DNA from: Candidatus Latescibacterota bacterium
Lineage (GTDB): Bacteria; JAAXHH01; JACQVL01
DNA length: 5,995 nucleotides
Direction of reading: 5' to 3'
Assembly (NCBI GenBank): GCA_016209865.1
Contig: JACQVL010000006.1
Coordinates: 1-5,995, forward strand
Shown: positions 1 to 4,554 of the stretch, piece by piece
How positions within the stretch are numbered: the first letter of the stretch is position 1
How the letters are laid out: each line of letters opens with the position of its first letter
Made by a program: the position numbers and the translations under genes
Notes under the pieces: generated by a model
Told to the model about the DNA's origin: nothing
The model's database searches: none
Seen by the model: only the letters and a program-made list of their open reading frames with translations

Positions 1-28
1 GGTCAGGGGTCGGGGGTCAGGGGTTAGT
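1..28. repeat. Heptamer tandem repeat GGTCAGG inside waaA
   Basis: Four consecutive 7-base units: GGTCAGG, GGTCGGG, GGTCAGG, GGTTAGT. The array may continue left of the window. It lies in frame within waaA; on the coding strand three units make 21 bases and so encode a 7-residue period (LTPDPRP, then LT). It resembles in form the short tandemly repeated heptamers (STRR) described in cyanobacteria, though a relationship is only inferred. Confidence 0.85.
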
Positions 29-927
29 ACAGACAGGGGCTGAATCTCGCTTCGCCGGATGAAGGGGAGTCCGTGCTCACGCAGGGATCGCTGCACGTCG
101 GGTAGGCGGTCGAGATGGCGAGGGGCGCAGATCAGTCGGGCTTCGGGATGACGAGCCCGCACGGCGATAAATGCCTCGAACACCATCTCCTCCTCGCCAG
201 GCCGCGTACTCCCGGCGATGATGACCGGCTCCGCCTCCGGCAGGCCGAGCATCTGGCGCAGGACGGTTCGGGACGAAGGAGGAGTTGAGGACATGAGATC
301 GACTTTCACGTTGCCGGTGACGATCACACGATCCGGGCTGGCTCCGCAGTCGATGAACCGATTCGCGTCCGTCTCTGTCTGCGCACAGAGGAGTGCCAGC
401 CGGGAGAGCATCCGGCGCGTGAGCCGTCTGATCGTCCGGTAGCGGGGATAGCTCCGGTCGGACATCCGCCCGTTGACGAGGGCGACGCGGCACCCGGACC
501 GCACTGCTTCCTCGATCAGACAGGGCCATAATTCTCCCTCGACGAAGACGAGCGCCCGAGGGGAGAACCGGACGAACGCCCGCCGGACGATGATCGGCAC
601 GTCGAGTGGGACAAGGCAGAGCCCATGCACATCGGGCACCATCCGCCGGGCGTGGTCGAGTCCGGTCCGCGTCATCGTGGACACGACCACCCGCCAGTCG
701 GGTTGTACCCGGATGAACGCGCTGACTATGGCTGTCAGTCCAGCCACTTCGCCGACCGACGCGGCATGAAACCAGATGACCGGCCGGTCGGAGGAGCCGT
801 TGACGGCCGGCAGGATGCCGACCCGATGCCGCATCCCCCTCCAGTTGGCCATCCCCGCGATGGCAAGAACAGGGGACGCGAGGAACGCGAGGAGCGTGGC
901 GAGAAAGGCGTAGAGGAAATACATCAT
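1..927 (-). CDS. waaA: 3-deoxy-D-manno-octulosonic acid (Kdo) transferase, 3' end beyond the window
   Basis: Transfers Kdo from CMP-Kdo to the lipid A precursor at the cytoplasmic face of the inner membrane. The 309 visible codons match the WaaA/KdtA family over their length: an N-terminal hydrophobic anchor (residues 2-26), the IWFHAASVGE block (51-60) whose last Glu (E60) aligns with the catalytic base known in this family, EGELWP (130-135), GNVKVD (205-210), STRPGEE (240-246) and PRHLDR (269-274). The C-terminal GT-B domain lies outside the window. Two adjacent ATGs (927 and 924) follow the acyltransferase stop after one base, so translation is probably coupled; no clear Shine-Dalgarno is seen. 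The last visible codons (301-309, LTPDPRPLT) are encoded by a heptamer repeat array. It sits where homologues have a linker before the next conserved block, so the gene is either extended there or soon ends; the window cannot tell. Identity is secure, completeness unknown. Confidence 0.93.
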   Translation of the reverse strand, partial: MMYFLYAFLATLLAFLASPVLAIAGMANWRGMRHRVGILPAVNGSSDRPVIWFHAASVGEVAGLTAIVSAFIRVQPDWRVVVSTMTRTGLDHARRMVPDVHGLCLVPLDVPIIVRRAFVRFSPRALVFVEGELWPCLIEEAVRSGCRVALVNGRMSDRSYPRYRTIRRLTRRMLSRLALLCAQTETDANRFIDCGASPDRVIVTGNVKVDLMSSTPPSSRTVLRQMLGLPEAEPVIIAGSTRPGEEEMVFEAFIAVRARHPEARLICAPRHLDRLPDVQRSLREHGLPFIRRSEIQPLSVLTPDPRPLT

Positions 928-928
928 A

Positions 929-1621
929 CTAACTGGATTCCCGCTTTCGCGGGATGGAATTATCAATCCGCAATCCGCAATCCGCAATCGGTAGAAGCTC
1001 TTCCTCCGCCTCGCGCATCGCCTCCATCAGCCGCGTTTCCAGCTCCACCCGTTTTGTCTCGACGACGGCCTCTGAACCATGCATCGGCACCGTGAGCGGC
1101 TCCCCGAACGCGACCACCGTCCGGGCGAACGGGAGCGGAACGATGAACCGGTCCCAGCTCGACAGGACGAGCTTGCGGGAGCAGGCGACCGCGAACGGGA
1201 CGATGGGAAGCCCGGAGCGCATGGCGATGTAGAGGATGCCCGCCTGAGCCTGGCGGCGCGGCCCGCGCGGCCCGTCCACCGTGATACCTAAGTCGTACCC
1301 CTCCATGCCCGCGACGACCATCTGGAACAACGCCTGCGTGCCTCCACGGGTGGACGATCCCCGGATCGTCGTGTAGCCTAATCGCTGGATCGTCCGACTG
1401 ATGTACTCCCCGTCCCGGTGCTGGCTGACGAGCACCCGGATGCCGCGATGCCGGAACGCATACGTGGCGATGAGGAGCCCCTCATGCCAGAACGCGTAGA
1501 TCACCGGTTGGTCGCCCGCTCTGGCCTTGTCAAAACGCTCCCCCCCGATGAACCGGACGGTACACGTCCGGCCCAGCGCGGTGATCAGCCAGGCGCCGAG
1601 AAGACCGATGAGAGAAAGCAT
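929..1621 (-). CDS. DUF374-family lysophospholipid acyltransferase-like protein (candidate LpxJ-type lipid A acyltransferase)
   Basis: A 230-aa membrane-associated acyltransferase. Family motifs are clear: WHEGLL (45-50) with the His-Glu pair, SQHRDGE (66-72), RGSSTRGG (87-94) and TVDGPRGPR (114-122). An N-terminal hydrophobic helix (about 1-17) would anchor it. DUF374 proteins include LpxJ, a non-canonical lipid A secondary acyltransferase known from Campylobacterota. The position between lpxB and waaA suggests a role in late acylation of lipid A, but substrate and acyl chain cannot be read from sequence. The start ATG lies two bases after a T-run of the upstream repeat element, and no Shine-Dalgarno is visible. 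The domain ends near residue 210; residues 211-230 (IADCGLR period, then SIPRKRESS) are translated from a heptamer array and a palindromic repeat and are probably not functional family sequence. The stop lies one base from the waaA ATG. Confidence 0.85.
   Translation of the reverse strand: MLSLIGLLGAWLITALGRTCTVRFIGGERFDKARAGDQPVIYAFWHEGLLIATYAFRHRGIRVLVSQHRDGEYISRTIQRLGYTTIRGSSTRGGTQALFQMVVAGMEGYDLGITVDGPRGPRRQAQAGILYIAMRSGLPIVPFAVACSRKLVLSSWDRFIVPLPFARTVVAFGEPLTVPMHGSEAVVETKRVELETRLMEAMREAEEELLPIADCGLRIDNSIPRKRESS
939..954 (-). repeat. Palindromic repeat, GAAA-capped hairpin upstream of waaA
   Basis: On the coding (minus) strand TCCCGC-GAAA-GCGGGA forms a 6-bp GC-rich stem with a GNRA tetraloop. 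The surrounding pattern, ATTCCC-type ends around a short core, resembles the dRS3-like palindromic repeats dispersed in many Gram-negative genomes. It is translated as part of the acyltransferase tail and ends 11 bases before the first waaA ATG, so in mRNA it could affect waaA initiation. That effect is inferred only. Confidence 0.7.
964..991. repeat. Heptamer tandem repeat CAATCCG in the acyltransferase tail
   Basis: Four units: CAATCCG three times, then CAATCGG. Read on the minus strand (CGGATTG) the array contains no stop in any frame, so the acyltransferase frame runs through it and gives the peptide IADCGLR in a 7-residue period. It starts at the point where the conserved domain ends. 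Confidence 0.88.
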
Positions 1622-1623
1622 GG

Positions 1624-1713
1624 AAAAAAGTGAAGAGTGAAGAGTGAAGAATTAAGAGTGAAAGACGAAGAGAACCAACGATATGCGATGTTTTGCACTC
1701 TTCACTCTTCACT
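1624..1713 (-). terminator. Possible attenuator or terminator-like structure between lpxB and the acyltransferase gene
   Basis: Read along the operon (minus strand), the 18-bp stem ends directly in TTTTTT, the layout of an intrinsic terminator. Against this, the loop is long (49 bases), the stem is only moderately GC, and the genes downstream belong to the same pathway. Partial attenuation, or an RNA-processing or stabilising stem, is as likely as full termination. The plus-strand reading also ends in T6 after two intervening bases, so the shape is bidirectional. Confidence 0.3.
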
Positions 1714-1721
1714 GCTTTTTT
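1624..1721. repeat. Inverted heptamer element between lpxB and the acyltransferase gene
   Basis: The left arm has six 7-base units at 1629-1670 (AGTGAAG three times, then degenerate AATTAAG, AGTGAAA, GACGAAG). The right arm has the inverse unit CTTCACT twice plus one degenerate copy (1693-1713). Bases 1629-1646 and 1696-1713 are perfectly complementary over 18 bp, separated by 49 bases. The arms are flanked by A6 on the left (1624-1629) and T6 on the right (1716-1721). The right arm contains the lpxB stop codon and the left edge lies two bases from the acyltransferase ATG, so the element fills the whole junction. No coding potential is seen in the 49-base centre. Confidence 0.88.
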
Positions 1722-2839
1722 GCCAGTTCTACCGCCATCCGCGCCACGCGCTCCGACGCGCCCGGACTGCCGAGCCGCGACCGGACGCCGTGGAGATCGC
1801 TCCGCATGCGTGCGAGACGAACCGGATCGTCGAGGAACTGGAGCGCTGCCGGGGCGAGAATGTCTGGAGTCACCTCGTCCTGGAGGAATTCCGGGACGAC
1901 GCGCTGGCCAGCGACAACGTTGACCAGCCCGATGTTCGGGACCGTCACCACGCGCTTCCCGATCCACCACGAGAGCCGGGCCATCTTGTACAGCACGAAC
2001 ATCGGCGTCCCCAGGCAGGCCGCCTCGAGGGTTGCCGTCCCAGATGCGACGAATAAGAAATCGGCGTGCTGCATGACGTCGTACGTCAGTCCTTCCACCA
2101 CGGCCATCTGTCCGGCCTGCGCGAGCAGGGGCGCGATCGTTTCCTGCTGGATCGTCGGGGCGAGGCCGATGACCCCCTGGAGACCTGGCATCGACCGGCG
2201 CATCTCCTGGATGGTGCCGATCATCGTGGGCAGCAGGCGAGAGACCTCCTGCCACCGGCTGCCCGGCAGCAGGCCGATGATGGGCTGCACGGGAACGAGT
2301 CCCGCCTGCTGACAGAACACCGGTTTATCGTGAATCGGGCGCACGACCTCCAGGAGGGGATGACCGACAAATTCCACACGACCGCCCGCCCGTTCGTACA
2401 GCTCGACTTCAAACGGAAACACGACCGCCATCCGGTCGACCAGCCGGACGATCGTCGAAACCCGGCCCGGCCGCCACGCCCAGACCTGCGGGCTGATGTA
2501 GTACAGGATGGGAATCCCGTGCCGCTTCGCCCGCCGGGCGAGGCGCAGGTTGAACTCCGGATAATCGATCAGGACGAGGACGTCTGGCCGGCGGTCGATG
2601 AACAGCCGCTCGAGGCGGCGGAACGCAGCCCGGACGAACGGGAGATGGCGGACGACCTCGACCAGCCCCATGAACGCGAACTGTTCGATGTGATAGATCG
2701 GTTCGAACCCCTCCCGACGCATCCGGTCGCCCCCGACCCCGAACACCTCGCCGTCCGGATCACATCCCCGCAGCGCCCGAACCAGGCCGGCCCCGTGCAG
2801 GTCTCCCGACGCTTCTCCCGCGATGATCATGATGCGCAT
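1709..2839 (-). CDS. lpxB: Lipid A disaccharide synthase
   Basis: Condenses UDP-2,3-diacylglucosamine with lipid X to form the tetraacyl disaccharide 1-phosphate, the committed disaccharide step of lipid A synthesis, at the inner membrane. At 376 aa it is close to the roughly 380 aa usual for LpxB. Motifs in order: AGEASGDLHGA (7-17), IDYPEFN with D92 (91-97), ISPQVWAWR (115-123), GLLPGSRWQEV (189-199, including the conserved Arg of the PGSR motif), ASGTATLEA (265-273) and NVVAGQRVVPEFLQ (307-320). The ATG at 2839 gives the family's canonical MRIMIIAGE start; the only in-frame extension upstream is repeat sequence starting at a TTG. The leader is CCTTTCT with no Shine-Dalgarno. The final codons AAG CAG TGA come from the right arm of the following repeat element, so the C-terminus (AKKQ) is probably repeat-derived. 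All key motifs are intact. Confidence 0.97.
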   Translation of the reverse strand: MRIMIIAGEASGDLHGAGLVRALRGCDPDGEVFGVGGDRMRREGFEPIYHIEQFAFMGLVEVVRHLPFVRAAFRRLERLFIDRRPDVLVLIDYPEFNLRLARRAKRHGIPILYYISPQVWAWRPGRVSTIVRLVDRMAVVFPFEVELYERAGGRVEFVGHPLLEVVRPIHDKPVFCQQAGLVPVQPIIGLLPGSRWQEVSRLLPTMIGTIQEMRRSMPGLQGVIGLAPTIQQETIAPLLAQAGQMAVVEGLTYDVMQHADFLFVASGTATLEAACLGTPMFVLYKMARLSWWIGKRVVTVPNIGLVNVVAGQRVVPEFLQDEVTPDILAPAALQFLDDPVRLARMRSDLHGVRSRLGSPGASERVARMAVELAKKQ

Positions 2840-2841
2840 AG

Positions 2842-2922
2842 AAAGGCAGTGACAAGTGACGAGTGACAAGTGACGAGCGAGAGTGAGACCTATTTGTTTT
2901 ACTCGTCACTCGTCACTGCTTT
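2842..2922. repeat. Inverted heptamer element between the methyltransferase gene and lpxB
   Basis: The left arm at 2848-2875 holds four 7-base units alternating AGTGACA, AGTGACG, AGTGACA, AGTGACG, followed by a decayed unit. The right arm at 2901-2917 holds CGTCACT twice plus a partial unit. Bases 2846-2864 and the complement of 2901-2919 match at 18 of 19 positions, with 36 bases between. The outer ends are AAAGGCAGTGAC on the left and, inverted, AAAGCAGTGACG on the right. The right arm carries the methyltransferase stop codon, and the left end lies two bases from the lpxB ATG. Confidence 0.88.
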
Positions 2923-3485
2923 AAATACCATCGGACCGCGATGGCGAGCGAGACGGCGAAGATCGATTGAAACGTCCGCCGGTCGCTCCGGAACGCGTCC
3001 CGCAGATCGAACGGCAGGGTGGAAGTGTACGGGTATGGCCGGATGTTCGGGAGAAACCTCGGGACGTGGGCCGCATACCGCCCATACTCTACCGGGAACG
3101 CCGCGCGCAAGTGGGCTTCTTCGAGCGAGACGATCAGTCCGTACTGGATGCCGAACGCCAGGACGAAGACGAGGAGCATGTACGGCATCCAGGCCCAGGC
3201 CATGATGCACAGGCCGAGGCTCAGGATGAAATTGCCGTCGTAAATCGGGTTCCGGACGTACGCATACGGTCCGTTGGTGATGAGGACGGACGCGCCGACG
3301 TGCCGGGTTCGCGTCGCCGATCCCGCGTACCCCACGGCCCACAGCCGGATGGATTCGCCCGCGAGCGTGATGAATCCTCCGGCAGCGAGTGAGGCTGGAC
3401 TGGGATCTGCCATGATGAGCACCAGGACGAGCAGGGGGAGCGGGGTGTAACTCCGTGCCCGGAACATCGCGGCGCGAACGTTCAT
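2913..3485 (-). CDS. Isoprenylcysteine/phospholipid methyltransferase-family membrane protein
   Basis: A 190-aa integral membrane protein of the ICMT/PEMT type, predicted to methylate a lipid or membrane-bound small molecule with S-adenosylmethionine. Hydrophobic segments lie at about 14-25, 33-51, 84-118 and 173-189. The family signature is in its C-terminal half: ITNGPYAYVRNPIY (69-82), then EEAHLRAAFPVEY (122-134) and YAAHVPRFLP (137-146), matching the usual GPY-x-x-VRNP...EE...F...Y...VPRFLP pattern. The substrate is not identifiable. Sitting between an oxidoreductase and lpxB it may act on an envelope lipid, but this is guilt by association. The ATG at 3485 was chosen because the extension upstream is low-quality sequence overlapping the hairpin repeat; a weak GGA lies about seven bases upstream. 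An internal ATG at 3467 is possible. The end, AAG CAG TGA, is supplied by the repeat element. Confidence 0.85.
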   Translation of the reverse strand: MNVRAAMFRARSYTPLPLLVLVLIMADPSPASLAAGGFITLAGESIRLWAVGYAGSATRTRHVGASVLITNGPYAYVRNPIYDGNFILSLGLCIMAWAWMPYMLLVFVLAFGIQYGLIVSLEEAHLRAAFPVEYGRYAAHVPRFLPNIRPYPYTSTLPFDLRDAFRSDRRTFQSIFAVSLAIAVRWYLKQ

Positions 3486-3500
3486 GAGATTCCATCTGGT

Positions 3501-3556
3501 GCAGGGGCGATCCTTGTGATCGCCCTCATCTGGGCGAATACGAGATTCGCCCCTAC
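3501..3556. repeat. Twin-hairpin palindromic repeat between the oxidoreductase and methyltransferase genes
   Basis: Two adjacent perfect 8-bp hairpins with 5-base loops: GGGCGATC/GATCGCCC (3505-3512 and 3518-3525) and GGGCGAAT/ATTCGCCC (3532-3539 and 3545-3552). The outer ends GCAGGGGCGA and, inverted, GTAGGGGCGA are also near-complementary, so the whole unit is an imperfect palindrome. The GTAGGGGCGA type of repeat is, to my knowledge, dispersed in several environmental bacterial genomes. It spans the 67-base gap between the two genes and overlaps the oxidoreductase stop codon. Confidence 0.82.
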
Positions 3557-4554
3557 AACCCTTGCTGTATCTTCTCCACGATCTCCAGTGAGATCCGGAG
3601 GGCCTCCCGGCCATCCTCCCCGGTCACGGGCGGGGGACAGGCTTCGCGGGCCGCGCGTACGAATGCGGCCAGTTCCAGGGCTAACGGCTCCGCGGGCGGA
3701 ACCGCCGGCCGTTCGCACAGGACCTGCCGTGTCCGGCCATCCGGGGTCGGGATCGTATAGGGAAGCGCCACCGTCCCCGGACGGGCGAGATGAGGGTCGA
3801 TCGACGCCCCGTCAGCGAGGCGATAGACCTCAGCCTGTCCTGCCAGGAAGTCCAGGGCGAGGTACGCGTCCCGCTGGAACAGGCGCATCTTCCGCATCTT
3901 CTTGAGCGAGATCCGGCTGGCCGTCACGTTCGCCACGCAGCCGTTGTGAAACCGTAGCCGGGCGTTGGCGATGTCGATCTGATCCGACACGACGGCGACG
4001 CCCGCCGCATCGACCTGCACGACGTCCGAACGGACGAGATGCCGGATGAGGTCGATGTCGTGGATCATCAGGTCATGGACGACGGAGACGTCAGTGCCGC
4101 GCGGGTCGAACGGGGACAGCCGGTGGGATTCGATGAAACCAGGGGAGAGCGCGAGACCGTCCAGCGCGCGCACGGCCGGGTTGAACCGTTCGATATGGCC
4201 GACCTGGAGGGTCACCCTGCGTGTTCGGGCGAGGTCGATGAGCGCGTCCGCCTCCTGGAGAGTCGTGGTGATCGGCTTCTCGATGAACGTGTGCATCCCG
4301 CGATCCAGCGCCTGTCTGCCGACGTCGAAATGGCTCGTCGTCGGGACGACGACGCTGACCGCCTCGACCGCGCGGTAGAGCGCGTCGAGGTCTGAAAAGA
4401 CAACCGCTCCGTGCCGTCCGGCCACCTCCTGGGCCCGGCCTCGATCCGTGTCGAACACCCCGGCTAAGGTGACATCCGGCAGACCGGCGTAGACACGAGC
4501 GTGTTCCTGGCCGAGTCGTCCGACCCCGATGACGGCCACGCGCAACGGATTCAC
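3553..4554 (-). CDS. Gfo/Idh/MocA-family NAD(P)-dependent oxidoreductase
   Basis: A 333-aa cytoplasmic sugar-type dehydrogenase with an N-terminal Rossmann fold: RVAVIGVGRLG carries G10-x-G12-x-x-G15, and FIEKPI has the family's Glu-Lys-Pro at 92-94, where the Lys is catalytic. The C-terminal substrate domain holds HDLMIHDIDL (160-169), the position of the conserved His/Asp pair. It heads the lipid A operon. Similar genes beside lpxA or lpxB occur in other diderms. One characterised relative is GnnA, which oxidises UDP-GlcNAc at C3 for diamino-sugar lipid A, but its partner aminotransferase GnnB is not in view, so no specific substrate is claimed. The GTG at 4554 is preferred: AAGGAG lies seven bases upstream and the residues beyond it are promoter sequence. 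The stop TAG falls within the twin-hairpin repeat. Confidence 0.93.
   Translation of the reverse strand: MNPLRVAVIGVGRLGQEHARVYAGLPDVTLAGVFDTDRGRAQEVAGRHGAVVFSDLDALYRAVEAVSVVVPTTSHFDVGRQALDRGMHTFIEKPITTTLQEADALIDLARTRRVTLQVGHIERFNPAVRALDGLALSPGFIESHRLSPFDPRGTDVSVVHDLMIHDIDLIRHLVRSDVVQVDAAGVAVVSDQIDIANARLRFHNGCVANVTASRISLKKMRKMRLFQRDAYLALDFLAGQAEVYRLADGASIDPHLARPGTVALPYTIPTPDGRTRQVLCERPAVPPAEPLALELAAFVRAAREACPPPVTGEDGREALRISLEIVEKIQQGL

Follow-up and report, generated by a model that had tools for sequence, protein, structure and literature searches.

Heptad arrays in a lipid A operon

The window analysed here comprises 5,995 nucleotides of the genome of a Candidatus Latescibacterota bacterium (GenBank assembly GCA_016209865.1, contig JACQVL010000006.1), and it carries tandem arrays with a seven-nucleotide unit, hereafter heptad arrays, in and between the genes of a lipid A operon. 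It corresponds to contig 286 in a draft genome of 3.75 Mb, a metagenome-assembled genome (MAG) which is 83% complete. Genes were called with a simple codon-usage caller and domains were assigned with Pfam, resulting in a gene set composed of waaA, DUF374, lpxB, a PEMT/ICMT methyltransferase, a Gfo/Idh/MocA oxidoreductase, a YHS protein and Lnt (Table 1).

A preliminary description of this DNA had reported four arrays sharing a strict period of seven, and Tandem Repeats Finder (TRF) recovered all four of them with that period. All four are real, but those at 1629-1713 and 2848-2917 are each made of two separate inverted arrays and not of a single one. The arms of these two convergent pairs are separated by about 33 and 23 nt, respectively, and, when read on the operon (minus) strand, both pairs extend from a stop codon to about 8 nt before the next start codon. 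The lpxB stop codon (1709-1711) lies within the first unit of the arm at 1696-1713, and the methyltransferase stop codon (2913-2915) within the first unit of the arm at 2901-2917. The alternation of AGTGACA and AGTGACG units in the array at 2848-2874/2886 is registered by TRF as a period of 14 as well. Both pairs are predicted to fold, with stems of about 18 bp and RNA z-scores of -5.4 (1629-1713) and -7.2 (2848-2917), and they are predicted to fold as DNA too. No match above the gathering score was returned by an Rfam scan, in which generic hairpin matches below threshold were located at the two inverted pairs only.

The G-rich strand of the GCGGATT arm is the sense strand with respect to DUF374 and waaA. 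Homology of DUF374 to all order-level relatives ends at residue 195-196 of 230, while its last ~34 residues (window 929-1033), found in no relative, read through this arm and a neighbouring palindrome. Heptad arms thus account for recurring junk peptides in gene predictions, such as this extension. The TCAGGGG-family array falls within the waaA frame, right at the contig edge.

Table 1. Genes and repeat features of the window with their coordinates, strand and supporting evidence
Feature	Position	Strand	Evidence and remarks
Heptad array, TCAGGGG family	1-28	+	GGTCAGG GGTCGGG GGTCAGG GGTTAG; TRF 1-24, unit GGTCAGG, 88% match
waaA/kdtA (KDO transferase), truncated by contig end	2-924	-	Pfam Glycos_transf_N 1.1e-55
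DUF374, lysophospholipid acyltransferase-like	929-1621	-	Pfam
Second dispersed repeat copy, palindrome GGATTCCCGC-TTTC-GCGGGAT	935-960	.	Sequence
Heptad arm GCGGATT (AATCCGC on +)	964-989	-	TRF: unit CAATCCG, perfect, 3.7 copies
Heptad arm AGTGAAG	1629-1662	+	TRF; inverted partner of 1696-1713; ~8 nt short of DUF374 start codon
Heptad arm AGTGAAG (CTTCACT on +)	1696-1713	-	TRF unit CACTCTT
lpxB, lipid-A-disaccharide synthase	1709-2839	-	Pfam LpxB 4.9e-96
Heptad arm, AGTGACA/AGTGACG alternating	2848-2877	+	TRF 2848-2874/2886; ~8 nt short of lpxB start codon
Heptad arm AGTGACG	2901-2917	-	TRF unit ACTCGTC
Isoprenylcysteine/phospholipid methyltransferase-like gene	2913-3485	-	Pfam PEMT/ICMT
Gfo/Idh/MocA oxidoreductase	3553-4554	-	Pfam

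Period, placement and facing across the genome and its relatives

The period spectrum was determined on a genome sample of 98 contigs taken systematically, covering 1.03 Mb. There, 140 arrays had a period of 7, in comparison to 2, 7 and 6 arrays with periods of 6, 8 and 9. The harmonics at 14 and 21 accounted for 75 and 24 arrays, and each of the remaining periods between 4 and 27 which are not multiples of seven for at most 7. Sequence simulated with a third-order Markov model yielded no period-7 array at an exact-run threshold of 12. The excess at exactly seven, which the preliminary description had put forward as a check, is therefore a property of the genome.

The units had also been described as unrelated, while in fact each belongs to a small vocabulary of families which is reused genome-wide. 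The coexisting families include AGTGACG, GATTTTG, GAAGGAC, TCGGTGG, TCAGGGG (8 arrays in the sample), AGTGAAG and GCGGATT. When named by their lowest rotation, the most abundant are ACGAGTG (43 arrays), AAAATCC (27), AAGGACG (12) and ACCACCG (12), followed by ACCCCTG (8), AAGAGTG (6), AAGTGAC (5) and others. The 20-mer AGTGACRAGTGACRAGTGAC, representing AGTGACR, has 237 matches in the genome, where its reversed control yields 0, and no match in any of 15 genomes from this order. Runs of three or more G are found in TCAGGGG, GGGGTTC and similar minor families and are absent from the commonest units, namely AGTGACG, GATTTTG and GAAGGAC; G-quadruplexes cannot, therefore, be the common principle.

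Clustering at gene boundaries was confirmed, with 136 of the 140 period-7 arrays lying outside the deep interior of called genes. Of these 136, 57 (42%) begin no more than 10 nt from a stop codon, compared with 8% of random noncoding positions. The recurring context consists of a stop codon, a few bases, an arm whose G-rich strand is sense, and then A-rich bases. Among arrays beginning 0-25 nt after a stop codon, the G-rich strand is sense in 43 and the C-rich strand in 4 (p = 3e-9). The bias spans many families, and GATTTTG, which has no stop in its main unit, is one of them. Since some units contain TGA, this count was restricted to arrays with a stop strictly before the array, and stops inside the unit, considered as an artefactual source of the bias, were rejected.

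An inverted copy is present within 250 nt of 62 of the 136 arrays, against 6% when neighbourhoods were exchanged between arrays, while a direct copy within the same distance was found for 3 only. The pairs which could be resolved (46) have arms of 17-40 bp and spacers of 33-185 nt. A count with family-specific patterns gave 43 convergent pairs, with the G-rich strands pointing inward, and 0 divergent ones. Single arms fold no better than shuffled sequences (z-scores from -1.0 to -1.6). A detected array is carried by 14% of tandem, 12% of convergent and 16% of divergent gene junctions, and the lipid A operon, in or beside which the preliminary description had placed the arrays, is accordingly not special. 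A loss of the Shine-Dalgarno motif at start codons adjoining an arm was considered and rejected (14/35 vs 337/737, not significant).

Comparison of orthologous junctions, another of the proposed checks, was carried out within the order, across which the gene order LpxB-DUF374-WaaA is kept. The nearest of the relatives compared (G013), whose LpxB is 68% identical, features 10 arrays of period 8 and 5 of period 7 within 177 kb. Its lpxB-DUF374 junction holds four copies of TCACCAT directly before the start codon, and in its DUF374-waaA junction a hairpin with arms of period 8 (z-score -8.5) takes up the whole gap between stop and start. The constancy of seven, therefore, is not universal, and it fails even at an orthologous junction. 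Units of the two lengths can be related in this genome, as are TGGTGAT and TGGTGATT, indicating that the period itself can shift. In a further genome of the order (G002), 100 kb contained no array of period 7, and at the lpxB-DUF374 junction the other relatives show neither such arrays nor a strong hairpin running from stop to start. The same sites are thus occupied by different units, even of another period, and the class is missing from most relatives.

Origin and possible role of the arms

On balance it is probable, though far from certain, that the arrays constitute a genome-wide set of dispersed intergenic elements resembling repetitive extragenic palindromes (REPs), with arms built of heptads and copied as whole arms. 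The element would be an arm of about 25-35 nt, in which four to five heptads follow one another and one strand is rich in G and A, often with short A-tracts at its borders. Evidence for copying comes in the first place from sequence outside the repeats. The AGTGACG family shares AAAA.C before the array and CGAG-TAAAA after it, and A at single flank positions is found in 53-68% of the copies compared with 22% of noncoding sequence (42/79, p about 2e-9). An A-tract also lies downstream of the TCGGTGG, TCAGGGG and GAAGGAC families. Moreover, 10 of the 41 arrays of the GATTTTG family have an identical 31-mer, in which the variant units follow one particular order. The variant order of the AGTGACG family is more repetitive than within-array shuffles, which is weaker evidence as the same value is attainable with a global redraw. 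The shared non-repeat flanks, together with the variant order of one family, indicate that slippage alone is insufficient. The constant period had been read as a sign of shared amplification as opposed to shared ancestry: the constancy within this genome stands, while the flanks and variant order imply that the copies are in part related by common descent.

The proposal that a constant seven reflects a shared amplification mechanism is itself not new. Heptanucleotides have been described as the most abundant class of long repeats in many genomes, and seven nucleotides have been explained as the length of the stretch contacting the polymerase (Mrazek et al. 2007, as reported in PMC4679880). In accordance with this proposal, the arrays could be ordinary long microsatellites grown in place by slippage which favours a 7-nt step, an explanation we regard as rather unlikely. 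It would agree with the abundance of heptanucleotides elsewhere, and the harmonics at 14 and 21 and the unit variants do show homogenisation within arrays. Slippage, however, yields neither non-repeat flanks nor a variant order common to many copies, and it accounts neither for the 43:4 orientation after stop codons nor for the 43:0 ratio of convergent to divergent pairs with the same unit. Furthermore, G002, of the same order, has no period-7 array in 100 kb, and G013 uses a period of eight as well as seven. Two MutS-family genes are present in the genome; missing mismatch repair as the cause was rejected on this ground. Over-representation of heptamers has been noted since 2007, and no mechanism beyond slippage has been offered for it; the facing rule, the anchoring at stop codons and the shared flanks are the features by which a model of copying can be told apart from one of slippage.

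Several results weigh against the copying of whole arms. The shared core barely outlasts the array (median of 1 nt upstream and 1-5 nt downstream), and no larger copied unit is visible. Spacers, apart from nested dispersed repeats, are unconserved between copies. The arms of a pair are no more complementary than random arms of the same family, so that selection for exact pairing is not visible. Neither a Y1/RAYT (REP-associated tyrosine) transposase (PF01797; the E. coli control was positive) nor a reverse transcriptase was found in the 83%-complete MAG, and no empty site was seen among the relatives compared, none of which is close. Of the specific candidates considered, a RAYT or a reverse transcriptase as the spreader was rejected on these negative searches, and compensatory co-evolution of the arms because the within-pair score was not above that of shuffled pairs. 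Snap-back copying is likewise not visible, the arms within pairs being no more alike than those between pairs, in a comparison of low power since the families vary little.

Under the REP-like reading, arms would multiply through the copying of whole arms, by whatever route, and slippage and mutation would then alter the number and the letters of the units within each arm. Purifying selection would keep arms where coding sequence and start signals are spared, with the consequence that they would end up bracketing the gaps between neighbouring genes. In operon-like arrangements, e.g. ICMT-lpxB-DUF374, the transcripts are predicted to form an intercistronic stem-loop of 17-40 bp starting from the stop codon, which could act as REPs do by slowing ribosomes or 3' exonucleases, or could be cut by RNase III. 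REPs sit 1-20 nt after stop codons and affect translation when located within 15 nt of them (PMC12306157), and they form dimers of opposite orientation downstream of open reading frames (ORFs; PMC3733652). With REPs and bacterial interspersed mosaic elements (GTAG and CGTC families; PMC3733652, PMC12306157) the arms share a length of 20-40 bp, high copy number, intergenic location after stop codons, and the arrangement in opposite-orientation dimers which fold together. By this analogy, the arms probably have a REP-like effect on the translation or decay of operon messages. REP units differ in being palindromes with a GTAG or CGTC tag, whereas the present arms are heptad arrays which are not self-palindromic and carry no such end tag; in addition, GTAG-class REPs have a RAYT partner, and none was found in the 83%-complete MAG.

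The arms could also be transcription terminators, in which a stem at the end of a gene is preceded by an A-tract and followed by a T-tract. The pairs do read AAAA-arm ... arm-TTTT, follow stop codons and have a strong predicted folding, but their loops of 33-185 nt far exceed those of intrinsic terminators, convergent junctions are no richer in arrays than tandem or divergent ones, and arrays lie between the operon genes ICMT-lpxB-DUF374, whose order is conserved in relatives. Termination as the explanation is for these reasons improbable, and in view of the similar rates at all junction orientations and the location inside a conserved operon, the arms are probably not primarily terminators. 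Very little probability is likewise assigned to miniature inverted-repeat transposable elements (MITEs) in which heptad arrays serve, by coincidence, as the terminal inverted repeats. The intergenic sites, the high copy number and the similar lengths of the two inverted arms flanking a middle of 33-185 nt would fit such elements. However, the middles of different copies have nothing but nested repeats in common, an observation which disfavours a classic MITE; no partner was detected for more than half of the arms, no target duplication was seen, and no Y1 transposase was found in the 83%-complete MAG. Chance or an assembly artefact can practically be dismissed: some arrays do occur at contig ends, but simulated sequence yields none, the reversed AGTGACR pattern has no match against 237 for the forward one, and the class is also found in cultured isolates (the Stagnimonas record described below; Xanthomonas, PMC4692102).

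Other phyla and known heptamer repeats

Two of the units were searched for in distant genomes. AATCCGC arrays were found in 15 of 384 genomes, compared with 2 for the reversed pattern, and the records belong to Acidobacteria, Verrucomicrobia, Planctomycetota, Chloroflexi, Gemmatimonadetes, Bacteroidetes, Nitrospinota, Nitrospirae, Deltaproteobacteria and Gammaproteobacteria, including an isolate (Stagnimonas). AGTGACR was not shared beyond its control (5 vs 7 for the reversed pattern, in 368 far genomes). At 80 AATCCGC loci, other arrays numbered 82 with period 7 against 8, 10 and 8 with periods 6, 8 and 9; these seeded loci, together with small samples, are the basis for the rate of period 7 across phyla. 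Paired arrays in the loci from other phyla were convergent in 36 cases and divergent in 1, counted by array, so that both arms of one pair may be included.

The cyanobacterial short tandemly repeated repetitive sequences (STRR) had been named as the nearest described analogue. STRR are heptanucleotide tandem repeats with several units per genome. Their unit sequences probably differ from those described here. A closer match is provided by the GGGAATC arrays of Xanthomonas, with convergent pairs of about four heptamers (PMC4692102). These arrays mostly have four units, are intergenic in about 90% of cases and lie closer to the ORF on their 5' side; they form 70-75 convergent pairs and have been studied as G-quadruplex formers (Rehm et al. 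2015, PMC4692102). The GGGAATC and GGGGA(T/C)T repeats of Xanthomonas and Nostoc share with the present arrays the period of seven, the prevalence of about four units, the intergenic location, the proximity to the 5' neighbour and the convergent pairs, and we count as a further likeness that in that system related species carry prominent repeats at different genes (PMC4692102). Unlike that system, in which each genome has one G-quadruplex unit, many families coexist here and the commonest are without runs of three G; the anchoring at stop codons with a strand bias and the shared A-tract flanks also go beyond it.

The TAACTGA repeats of Beggiatoaceae, Cyanobacteria and Bacteroidetes are likewise intergenic direct repeats of a heptamer, with a fixed orientation to genes and a presence in scattered phyla, but they consist of one unit, lie just upstream of start codons and form inverted pairs in 1 of 170 cases (PMC4679880). 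The excess of heptamers (Mrazek 2007) and the convergent pairing of GGGAATC arrays in Xanthomonas (Rehm 2015) were thus already published; what is new is the occurrence of many units which do not form G-quadruplexes in one genome under one architecture, their anchoring at stop codons and a facing rule which holds across phyla.

These likenesses raise the possibility, put forward tentatively, of a single cross-phylum class of selfish or semi-functional intergenic elements defined by architecture and not by sequence, which would be made or copied in unrelated bacteria by a shared machinery with a step of 7 nt (sometimes 8 nt), independent of the unit and of G-quadruplexes. Its members would feature four to five 7-nt units, with the G-rich strands facing each other and anchored at stop codons. 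The variety of units without G-runs argues against G-quadruplex formation as what maintains such repeats, and the architecture provides a way to search for the class independently of sequence. Another candidate is an unrelated genome with a GC content of 64% (G195), where 57 kb hold 6 period-7 arrays, mostly with units containing CCTC or TCCC.

Two further repeats accompany the heptad arrays. The palindrome ATTCCC-N4..14-GGGAAT, of which one copy lies beside the GCGGATT arm in the window, has 46 copies in the 1.03-Mb sample, 41 of them noncoding (reversed control 0), and is often nested between facing heptad arms. In the window, the junction between the methyltransferase and Gfo/Idh genes (3501-3556) is occupied by an inverted repeat, AGGGGCGATCC...GGGCGAATACGAGATTCGCCCCT, and about 20 GGGCGA/TCGCCC sites resembling it are present in the same sample.

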